Assembly (NCBI GenBank): GCA_014763715.1
Contig: JACXUV010000006.1
Location: forward strand, 1 to 64,000
Source of the DNA: Rhodobacterales bacterium
GTDB lineage: Bacteria; Pseudomonadota; Alphaproteobacteria; Caulobacterales; Hyphomonadaceae
Direction: 5' to 3'
DNA: 64,000 nt
The notes below the pieces were generated by a model, which was not told where the DNA came from, did not search any database, and worked only from the letters and a program-made list of their open reading frames with translations. This document shows positions 55,604 through 60,981 of this stretch, in pieces; position 1 is the stretch's first letter; each line of letters opens with the position of its first letter. The position numbers and the translations under genes were made by a program.

Positions 55604-56509
55604 TCAGGCGCCTTTTGTCATGGATGCAACTTCGTCTGCGAAGTTGTCCTCTTCCTTCTCGATGCCTTCACCGAGTTTGAAGTGGACAAAGCCGTTCAGC
55701 GTAGCGCCTTCGCCTTTCAGGAACTCGCCGACCGTCTGGTCAGGGTTCATGACGAAAGGCTGCTCGACCAGCACGACTTCCTTGTAGAACTTCTGCATGC
55801 GGCCAACGATCATCTTCTCAATGACGCTGTCCGGCTTACCGCTTTCGCGAGCCTGCTCGGTCAGAACACGCTTTTCAGCTTCGACGATGGCCGGGTCCAG
55901 CTCGTCCGTCGTTGCAGCGGCCGGCGAAGTTGCCGCGATGTGCATCGCAACCTTGCGGCCGATTTCGTCCAGATCGCCAGCGCCGTCGAGCGCAACCAGA
56001 ACGCCCACTTTGCCCATGCCAGCGGCTTCGGCGTTGTGGATGTAGGAAGCGACTTTGCCGCCAGCAGTGACCTTGGCCGAACGGCGAAGCGTCATGTTCT
56101 CGCCGATCGTGGCGATCAGGCGTTTGATCAGGTCATCAACCGAACCTTCGCCATCCGGCGACGGTGCTGCAGCCAGAGCCTCGACGGAACCGTCGGTGCC
56201 CAGGGCAGCCTTGGCGATACCAGCCAGAGCGGACTGGAACTTTTCGTTACGGGCAACAAAGTCCGTTTCGGCGTTCAGCTCGACGATTGCGCCGGTCTTG
56301 CCGTCTTCGGACACCTGCACAGCCACCAGGCCGTCAGCCGCGGTGCGGCCCGACTTCTTGGCAGCCTTGGACAGGCCTTTTGCGCGCAGCCACTCAACGG
56401 CTGCGGCTTCGTCACCATTGTTTTCGACGAGCGCTTTTTTCGCGTCCATCATGCCGGCGCCCGTTTTCTCACGGAGCGCCTTCACAAGCGCAGCTGTAAT
56501 CTCAGCCAT
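55604..56509 (-). CDS. tsf: translation elongation factor Ts
   Basis: [43 protein letters not shown]. Confidence 0.98.
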
Positions 56510-56546: not shown

Positions 56547-57341
56547 TTATGCGCCGGCTTCGTCAGCCGTTTCGTCCGCTGCAGCAACATCTGCCTCAGC
56601 CATAGCCGCAACGTCTTCGAGTTCACCCAGGTCCACACCGAAGCCGGCGCTGGACTCGGCGAGGCCATCCAGGATGGCATCGGCGAACAGGTTGCAGTAG
56701 AGCGAGATGGCGCGTGCAGCGTCGTCGTTGCCCGGGAAGCCGTAGTCGGCATCCGCCGGGTCACAGTTCGTATCCAGGACGGCCACAACCGGGATACCCA
56801 GCTTGCGGGCTTCCTGGACAGCGATGGCTTCCTTGTTGGTGTCGATCACGATCATGGCAGACGGCAGGCCGCCCATGTCGGCGATACCACCCAGAGATTT
56901 CTGGAGTTTCTCGCGGCGACGTTCCAGGTCGAGAAGTTCTTTCTTGGTCAGGCCAGCGCCGCCGCCCGTTTCAAACATCGCGTTCAGTTCGCGCAGTTGC
57001 TTGATCGAGTTGGACACGGTGGACCAGTTGGTCAGCGTGCCGCCGAGCCAGCGGTGGTTCATGTAGTACTGGGCGCAGCGCTGTGCAGCCTCAGCAACCG
57101 GATCCTGGGCCTGGCGCTTCGTGCCGACGAACAGAACGCGGCCGCCCTTGGCAACCGTATCGCGCACGAACAGCAGTGCCTGGTGCAGAGCCGGCACGGT
57201 CTTCGAAAGGTCCATGATGTGGATGCCGGAGCGCTCGCCGTAGATGTACGGCTTCATGCGCGGGTTCCAGCGGTGGGTCTGGTGACCGAAGTGAACGCCA
57301 GCTTCGAGCAGCTGACGCATGGTGAAGTCAGGAAGGGCCAT
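56547..57341 (-). CDS. rpsB: 30S ribosomal protein S2
   Basis: [41 protein letters not shown]. Confidence 0.98.
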
Positions 57342-57433
57342 CGATTGTCTCCATCCGGTTGGCCGTCACGGGTGGAACTTTGGACCCCAATGGCCCGCGG
57401 CACCGGATGCACCCGTGAACTGGTTTAAGATGA
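57342..57433 (-). promoter_or_regulatory. structured rpsB mRNA leader with predicted pseudoknot
   Basis: TCACGGGTG (57410-57418) pairs with CACCCGTGA (57366-57374) and CATCCGGT (57402-57409) pairs with ACCGGATG (57352-57359). The two helices cross; the second abuts GGAG and the rpsB ATG. Confidence 0.6.
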
Positions 57434-57439
57434 GGCGGG

Positions 57440-57467
57440 CTTATACAGATATTCCCCTGTCGGGCAA
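57440..57467 (-). promoter_or_regulatory. candidate sigma70-type promoter for rpsB
   Basis: Minus strand TTGCCC, 16-bp spacer, TATAAG. Confidence 0.5.
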
Positions 57468-57558: not shown

Positions 57559-60500
57559 TCAGGCGGCCTTCAGGGGCTCCACCCGCTCCACCCCCGGCAC
57601 ATCCTTCAATGCCCGCTGGGCTTTCAGGCTGATCGTGTAGGTCGACGGCAGTTTGAGGATCACCAGCCGCCCATCGTCCAGCGGCACCTCGACCAGGATG
57701 TTGCCGCGCTCGGCATCCGGCAGCTTGGCGAGGTGCTGGACCACGCCGGCGATCTCCCCCGGATTCGCGCCAACGGCGAGTCGCACCTTCAGCGCGCCCA
57801 TGCCCGTGCTGAGGCGAGCCGATTCCAGCGGCAGGACCCGCTCCGCATTGAGGCGGATCTCCTCCCCGTTCCGCTTCACCCCGACCGTCACCGCCACGGC
57901 ATTGCCGACCTGGAGCAGGTCGTAATTCTGGGAGAGGGTCTCCGGGAAGACCATCATCTCCACCTCCCCCGTCGGGTCGGACAGGGTGAGGAAGGCGAAC
58001 TTGCCGCCATTCCGCGCCGGCTTGTCGGAGCGCAGGCGCACGATACCGATCATTTCGAGAGGTTTCCCGTCCGCCGCGCGCTCCTCGATCTCCATGGCGA
58101 GCGTCACACGCTCCCGGTCGAGGCCGGTGAGGACATCATCCAGCGGGTGGCCTGAGAAGTAGAAACCGATGGAGCGGAACTCCTCGTCCAGTTTCTGCTG
58201 GCCATTCCAGGCCTTCACGACCGGCATCGCAGGGCGCAGCGCGGGTTCGGCATCGCCAAACAGGCCGCCCTGCCCGCCCATCCGGTCTTCCGCCGCGCTC
58301 GCCGCCATCTGCGCCAGCATCGGCGCCCCGGCCAGCACCCGCGCCCGGTTCTTGTCGAAACAGTCGAACGCCCCGGCCTTGGCGAGGGATTCGAACGCCT
58401 TCTTGTTCACATGCTTCGGGTCGACCCGTTCGGCGAAATCGTAGATGTCCTTGAAAGGGCCGTCCTGTTCTCGGATCGCCACGACGTGCTTCATGGCTTC
58501 GAGGCCGACGCCCTTCAGGGCGCCCAGCGCGTAAACAATCGAGCCATCGCGCACATCGAAATCAGCCGTCGAGCTGTTCACATCCGGCGGAATGACCGGG
58601 ATCTTCAGCCGCTTGGCTTCCTGGAAGAAGGCGGCCAGCTTGTCGGTGTTACCAAGATCGAGGCTCATCGAAGCGGCCAGGAACTCCACCGTGAAGTGAC
58701 GCTTCAGATAGCCGGTATGGTAGCCGATCAGCGCATAGGCCGCCGCGTGAGACTTGTTGAAGCCGTAGCCCGCGAACTTCTCCATCGTGTCGAAGATTTC
58801 GTTGGCGAGCGGGGCTTCCATGCCCTTGTTCTTTGCCGCACCTTCGACGAAGCGCTGGCGCTGGGCGATCATCTCTTCCAGCTTCTTTTTACCCATGGCG
58901 CGGCGCAACAGGTCAGCATCGCCGAGCGAGTAGCCGGCGATTTCCTGCGCCATCCGCATCACCTGCTCCTGATAGACCGGCACGCCATAGGTGGCTTCCA
59001 GAACAGGCTTCAGGTCAGGGTGAGCGTACTGGACGCTCTCGGGATTTTCCTTGCCCTCGATATAGACAGGGATGTTCTCCATCGGGCCTGGACGATAGAG
59101 CGAGATGATGGCGATCACGTCTTCCAGACTGTGCGGGCGCACCTTCTTCAGCGTGTCGCGCATGCCCGCGCCTTCCAGCTGGAAGACGCCCAGCGTGTCA
59201 CCGCCGCCCATCATGTCGTACGTAGCCTGATCATCCAGGCTTTGCCATTCGGGGCCGACATCCTTGCCGTCACGGCGGATGAACTTCAAGGCGCGGTCAA
59301 TCACCGTCAGGGTCTTCAGGCCGAGGAAGTCGAACTTCACAAGGCCTGCCTGCTCGGCATATTTCATATTGAACTGGGTTGCCGGAAGGTCCGCACGCGG
59401 ATCGTTATATAGCGGAACCAGTTCCACCAGCGGGCGGTCGCCAATCACGACACCGGCGGCGTGCGTCCCGGCGTTCCGGTATTTGCCTTCCAGCTTCAGC
59501 GCGATCTTGAGGAGTTCGCCGACGCGTTCGTCCGCGTCCATCTCCTCATAGAATTTCGGTTCGTCGTCGATCGCTTCCTGAAGCTTGGGCGGGTTGGCCG
59601 GGTTGAACGGGATCAGCTTCGCCAGACGGTCCACCTGGCCGTAAGGCATCTGCATCACCCGGCCGACATCGCGCACCACAGCCTTCGCCTGCAGCGTACC
59701 GAAAGTGATGATCATGGCCACAGAGTCCGCACCATACTTGTCGCGGACATAGCGGATCACTTCGCCCCGCCGTTCCTGACAGAAGTCGACGTCGAAGTCT
59801 GGCATGGAAACACGTTCGGGGTTCAGGAAGCGTTCGAACAGAAGATCGAAGCGTAGCGGATCAAGGTCCGTGATCAGCAGGACCCACGCCACGAGCGAAC
59901 CGGCACCAGACCCCCGGCCCGGCCCCACCGGAATGCCGTGTTCCTTGGCCCATTTGATAAAGTCCGAAACGATCAGGAAGTAACCGGGGAACCCCATGCG
60001 CTCGATGATGCCGAGCTCATAATCCAGACGCTCGAAATATGTTTCCCGGTCGGCATAGAGCTTGTCGGCCTGCCCCAGGCGGATTTCGAGCCCTTCCACG
60101 GCCTGCTTGCGAAGCTCTTCCGCCTCGGAGCGGCCTTCATTGGAGAAGTTCGGCAGGATCGGCTTGTGCGTCTCGGCCTTCACCGAGCAGCGGCGCGCAA
60201 TCTCCACCGTGTTCTCGATGGCTTCCGGCAGGTCCGCAAACAGCAGCCGCATCTCCGAAGGCGTTTTCAGGTATTGCTGCGGGCTGACCTGCTTGCGATC
60301 CGGCTGGCCAAGATATTCGCCATTGGAGATACACATCATGGCGTCATGCGCCTGTGCGTCTTCCGGCTTCATGAAGCGCGCATCATGCGTGGCGACAAGC
60401 GGCAGCTCCAGCTCATAGGCAAGCTCGATCAGGCCTTCCTCGACCGCCCGTTCCTCCGGCGTGCCATGGCGCGTGATCTCGACATAGCAACGGCCCGGAT

Positions 60501-60981
60501 AGGCACTCGCCAGCGTGGACAGTTCCGTCCGCGCATCCGCCATGCGGCCCTTCAGGAGGTGTTTGGCAACTTCCCCTTCCGCCCCGCCTGTCAGCACGAT
60601 CAGGCCGTCGGTCTTCTCCATCACCAGGGAGCGCGACAGCTTCGGCACGCCATCGGCCGCGTCCAGATAGGCGCGCGAGGACAGGAACATGAGGCGGCGA
60701 TAGCCGGTCTCGTTCTGGGCATAGAGTGTCAGGCGCGACGGCTCTGCCCGCGGAACATCCTCCACGACATCGAAACAGCAGGCCATGATCGGCTGGATGC
60801 CCGCGCCCGACATGGTCTGCGAGATTTCCAGCGCGCCGAACAGATTGTTCCGGTCGGTAATCGCCACGGCCGGCACCAGATGCTCCAGGCACCAGGCCTT
60901 CACATCCTTGGGCGAAATCATGCTTTCCAGCAGCGAATAGCTGGACCGGACGGCAAGATGGATGAAGGGCGACTCGGACAA
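57559..60981 (-). CDS. dnaE: DNA polymerase III subunit alpha
   Basis: [25 protein letters not shown] start; [53 protein letters not shown]. Confidence 0.98.

Follow-up and report, generated by a model that had tools for sequence, protein, structure and literature searches.

A P2-less variant of the known rpsB motif, with a conserved pseudoknot abutting the Shine-Dalgarno sequence, in the rpsB leader of Hyphomonas

The rpsB motif (RF01815) was described in 2009 upstream of rpsB in most Alphaproteobacteria and elsewhere (Meyer et al., PMC2704228). It is composed of P1, a junction carrying P2 and P3, and a pseudoknot formed by J2-3 with the extension 3' of P1; P2 and P3 are of variable length or absent, and P2 is missing in some representatives (PMC2704228). 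In Magnetospirillum, a transcription start was mapped 6-7 nt upstream of an RF01815 match (PMC9549626), so that at least one alphaproteobacterium transcribes this leader. In E. coli, rpsB-tsf is repressed by S2 via the leader, with S1 as partner; a 2024 review locates the ribosome-binding site outside the S2 operator and terms the mechanism of S2 repression unclear (PMC10931766). The leaders controlled by S4 (alpha operon) and S15 (rpsO) are a further term of comparison: they too are pseudoknots in mRNAs for ribosomal proteins, lie on or close to the ribosome-binding site and serve feedback, but they involve other proteins, sequences and structures and no homology with them is claimed here.

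The window, that is, the whole stretch of 64,000 nucleotides analysed, carries dnaE, the rpsB leader, rpsB and tsf on the same strand, the identities of DnaE, S2 and EF-Ts being assigned with NCBIfam models (Table 1). Its S2 shares 96% identity with the S2 of Hyphomonas sp. CY54-11-8, and on this basis the window was assigned to Hyphomonas. As in Pelagibacter, dnaE is the upstream neighbour of the rpsB leader; the dnaE-rpsB order was tabulated for SAR11 by Meyer et al. 2009 (PMC2704228).

Table 1. Coordinates of the rpsB leader elements and of the neighbouring genes in the window, in the order of the minus strand
Feature	Coordinates	Strand	Basis
dnaE, upstream of the rpsB leader, same strand	57559..60981	-	NF004226
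Putative -35, TTGCCC	57462..57467	-	Sequence; CTTG-like box kept in relatives (by eye)
Putative -10, TATAAG	57440..57445	-	Sequence; TATA kept in Hyphomonas leaders (by eye)
A, 5' arm of P1, TCACGGGTG	57410..57418	-	Sequence; genus pairing
B, pseudoknot 5' arm, corresponding to J2-3 of the rpsB motif, CATCCGGT	57402..57409	-	Genus-invariant; class-level compensation
P3 hairpin, GGGCC-ATTGG-GGTCC, 5 bp	57382..57396	-	Two-sided changes at 3/5 pairs in the genus
A', 3' arm of P1, CACCCGTGA	57366..57374	-	Sequence; genus pairing
A'-B' linker, CGGCCA, conserved as GGCNA	57360..57365	-	Alignments A1, A2
B', pseudoknot 3' arm, ACCGGATG	57352..57359	-	Sequence; genus invariance; class-level compensation
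Shine-Dalgarno, GGAG, first G also in B'	57349..57352	-	Sequence
rpsB, ribosomal protein S2 (264 aa)	56547..57341	-	TIGR01011, 323.7 bits
tsf, elongation factor Ts, second gene of the operon	55604..56509	-	TIGR00116, 291.2 bits

An earlier note on this DNA had described two crossing helices in front of rpsB, and its four arms, their coordinates, complementarity and crossing topology proved exact to the letter: on the minus strand, A pairs with A' over 9 bp and B with B' over 8 bp, in a leader of 67 nt from A to B'. Specifically, P1 (A/A') encloses a domain with P3, B sits between P1 and P3, and the A'-B' linker lies where RF01815 has its 3' extension. P2 is missing, the junction between A and B being 0 nt. 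Together with the 6-nt linker between A' and B', this implies that the full helices would probably need a sharp bend to exist together, and the two helices at full length may be incompletely formed at once. B' had also been said to run into GGAG with the ATG about 10 nt further on; it does so, with an overlap of one G and exactly 10 nt between its 3' end (57352) and the rpsB ATG (57341-57339). As for the promoter that had been proposed, the sequence TTGCCC-N16-TATAAG is present and fell below the threshold of a sigma-70 scan; by eye, CTTG...TATA is kept among related leaders.

A search with RF01815 gave no match to the window at E<=5. The model is blind to the window leader, unlike the related leaders that it does match, and its consensus has UCCGGU and AACCGGU at the places of B and B'. 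In a sample of 120 genomes of the order, RF01815 matched 22 at E<=0.01, with 0 matches in Hyphomonadaceae genomes; 9 exceeded the gathering cut-off of 40 bits, which is a detection criterion and not a biological feature. Since only 9 of the 120 genomes exceed the cut-off, the miss of the window reflects the reach of the model. The best RF01815 match elsewhere in the same genome (16.9 bits) is at chance level, and so are the matches of MEG3_2 and CDKN2B-AS_2 in the window, two lncRNA models scoring far under the cut-off.

When an alignment of 14 non-Hyphomonas leaders (A2) was analysed with RNAalifold, the B/B' helix was chosen unaided and no other helix was found. For this reason P1 was put by hand into R1, a covariance model of 14 leaders with Hyphomonas excluded, and its register is approximate for some rows. 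Run against the 3.55-Mb genome of the window, R1 ranked the window leader at the top (30 bits, E 6.5e-5; runner-up 15.3 bits), and it matched 79 of the 120 genomes of the order, including 13 of the 13 sampled Hyphomonas. A second R1 match in one genome (G083) was rejected as chance: it lies antisense inside a coding region reading like a histidine kinase, away from the only S2 gene of that genome.

The window leader thus shares with the rpsB motif its position before rpsB, the dnaE-rpsB neighbourhood, a covarying P1, the J2-3 pseudoknot with the UCCGGU/AACCGG core and P3, and its homology to the leaders of relatives is supported by the independent model R1. It lacks P2, which is not obligatory, and a score above the Rfam cut-off. 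In addition, it differs in that P1 directly abuts the pseudoknot arm and in the length of the pseudoknot (8 bp, against the 5 described for the rpsB motif). By homology and architecture, the window leader belongs to the rpsB motif as a member without P2; an Rfam scan, as advised in the earlier note, fails to recover it.

Covariation in related rpsB leaders had been named as a check on the structure, and compensation was found at the genus level for P1 and P3 and across the class for the pseudoknot. Among 35 Hyphomonas leaders (26 distinct), 98.3% of the P1 cells are paired and B/B' is identical in all 35. One P1 pair carries a two-sided change (A-U in 11 leaders, G-C in 14), G-C/G-U changes also occur in P1, and P3 shows two-sided changes at 3 of its 5 pairs. 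In the same leaders, the pairing amounted to 95.8%, compared with 31-52% in all slid-helix controls. All together, these alignments back P1 and P3 by compensatory changes in Hyphomonas. For the pseudoknot, the invariance of B/B' in the genus counts neither way, and support from compensation comes only via other genera.

In leaders from the wider class (Henriciella, Ponticaulis, Parvularcula, Brevundimonas, Rhodobacterales and others), the order P1, B, P1', short linker, B', Shine-Dalgarno is mostly kept, while the sequence of P1 is varied among relatives. B/B' reads UCCGGU/ACCGGA in most of them, UUCGGU/ACCGAA and UCCGGC/GCCGGA in 5 leaders each, UCAGU/ACUGA in 2 and UCUGGC/GCCAGA in 1, and the differing compensated forms belong to separate lineages. 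An unconstrained helix search often picked other helices in relatives with long P2/P3, which led to the use of spacing constraints and later of anchors blind to pairing. The paired fraction obtained with the first B/B' anchors is circular, as those anchors require pairing; in the fair version, B and B' were anchored by sequence similarity alone. With these pairing-blind anchors, the observed pairing or the count of two-sided changes was matched in 0 of 1000 partner shuffles, a figure that is not a probability, relatedness being still present in the control. In conclusion, the comparison of sequences backs the pseudoknot by compensatory changes across the class.

Two further observations concern single lineages. 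In the P2-less leaders L047, L087, L104 and L036, from Parvularcula and relatives, the pseudoknot reads CCUUCGGU/ACCGAAGG or longer, so that its 3' arm covers most of the AAGGAG Shine-Dalgarno. In the leaders of Ponticaulis and a relative (L074-L076), GTGCATCCGGTGC equals the Hyphomonas sequence around B; GTGC there forms the 3' side of a short P2 hairpin, GTG is part of P1 in Hyphomonas, and this difference of role is a possible trace of P2 loss.

Dinucleotide shuffling of the 100 nt upstream of the start codon produced a crossing helix pair of equal strength and equal proximity to the start codon in 2 of 2000 cases, and in 1 of 1000 when the spacing limits of the relatives were imposed. The nested minimum-energy fold of the leader (-34.7 kcal/mol) is not better than that of shuffles (z +0.71) and does not contain the pseudoknot. 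Single-sequence nested folding cannot represent pseudoknots and is uninformative on them; the structural case consequently rests on comparison, not on energy. In the nested fold the rpsB start codon is sequestered by GGGCCAU (57396-57390), whose complement is the rpsB start AUGGCCC (57341-57335); by eye, GCCAU is found in 2 of the 3 Hyphomonas leader types and is missing from the third.

The S2 autoregulation of E. coli rpsB-tsf through its 5' leader, mentioned in the earlier note, is established (PMC10931766). Of the alphaproteobacterial counterpart proposed there, the pseudoknot is conserved and covarying, and S2 control of the Hyphomonas leader is inferred by homology; no binding or expression data on Hyphomonas leaders were found in the literature searched. 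The E. coli rpsB leader, or t44 (RF00127), is alike in being an S2-repressed rpsB-tsf leader, and in our own reading of its sequence GGGGU/ACCCC can pair at the equivalent places. Beyond the conserved core the two sequences are unlike, and in E. coli 11 nt separate the pseudoknot arm from AGAGG, whereas in Hyphomonas this arm overlaps the Shine-Dalgarno by one base.

In the mechanism that we propose, S2 in excess of the assembling 30S subunits, a protein that has S1 as its helper in E. coli, would bind and stabilise the folded leader. The pseudoknot beside the Shine-Dalgarno would then block the 30S from the start site, leading to less S2 and, via transcription-translation coupling, to less EF-Ts. 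S2, with S1, stabilising the pseudoknot against 30S binding is the most likely arrangement, and the geometry makes occlusion of the ribosome-binding site by the pseudoknot plausible; as the E. coli ribosome-binding site is reported to lie outside the S2 operator, occlusion may not be the mechanism. Taken as a whole, the explanation by a P2-less rpsB motif whose S2-stabilised pseudoknot excludes the 30S is, in our judgement, probable.

Some readings question the element itself or its link with S2. Inverted repeats that arose by chance, or an operator acting at the DNA level, would agree with the GC-rich sequence and with the unremarkable nested fold; this reading is disfavoured as very improbable, given the compensatory changes that preserve pairing, the G-U pairs, the P3 in the loop and the model matches at rpsB across the order. 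The leader could otherwise be a translational enhancer or a standby structure with no relation to S2 feedback, and it is true that an S2 response in an alphaproteobacterium was not found in the literature searched. Against this, the position before rpsB is kept class-wide and the homologous E. coli leader is S2-repressed, which renders such a role unlikely.

Other readings accept the element and concern the way in which it works. A/A' and B/B' might be mutually exclusive and form a two-state switch, open with P1 only or closed. The tight A-B and A'-B' connections in Hyphomonas and the similar energies of the two states (P1 with P3, -20.2 kcal/mol; pseudoknot with P3, -18.2 kcal/mol) point in this direction, but relatives with P2 between A and B hold both helices without an obvious steric clash, and the published consensus shows P1 and the pseudoknot together (PMC2704228). 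We regard a switch of this kind as rather doubtful. A stronger claim, to which we give appreciable weight while not favouring it, is that of a genuine S2-responsive rpsB motif in which an S2-S1-mRNA complex traps or misplaces the 30S instead of occluding its site. This is suggested by the ribosome-binding site outside the E. coli operator and the requirement for S1, by pseudoknots being high-affinity S1 targets, and by the entrapment known for S4 and S15 at E. coli pseudoknots (PMC10931766). The placement of the 3' arm speaks for occlusion instead: B' occupies the first G of the Shine-Dalgarno in Hyphomonas, and its 3' end lies within a few nt of the Shine-Dalgarno in most other alphaproteobacterial leaders examined, against the 11 nt of E. 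coli.

Both the element and the pseudoknot within it were already described in 2009, and the window leader is a real, conserved lineage variant of this known element. Three points are added here: Hyphomonas and Henriciella have a form without P2, this form escapes Rfam, and the pseudoknot is placed on the Shine-Dalgarno. The comparison between 22 genomes of the order matched by RF01815 and 79 matched by a simple 14-sequence model shows that the RF01815 seed is too narrow, and a known ribosomal-protein leader is extended to the Hyphomonadaceae, a family in which the Rfam model fails to see it. It is conceivable, and we advance it tentatively, that Hyphomonas and alphaproteobacteria generally would exert S2 feedback via a pseudoknot on or abutting the Shine-Dalgarno, unlike E. 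coli, with Hyphomonas holding a minimal, P2-less S2-binding RNA. The Hyphomonas leader offers the presumed S2-binding RNA in a compact natural form, and its small size, together with a pseudoknot touching the Shine-Dalgarno, would make it a convenient test case for S2 self-repression.
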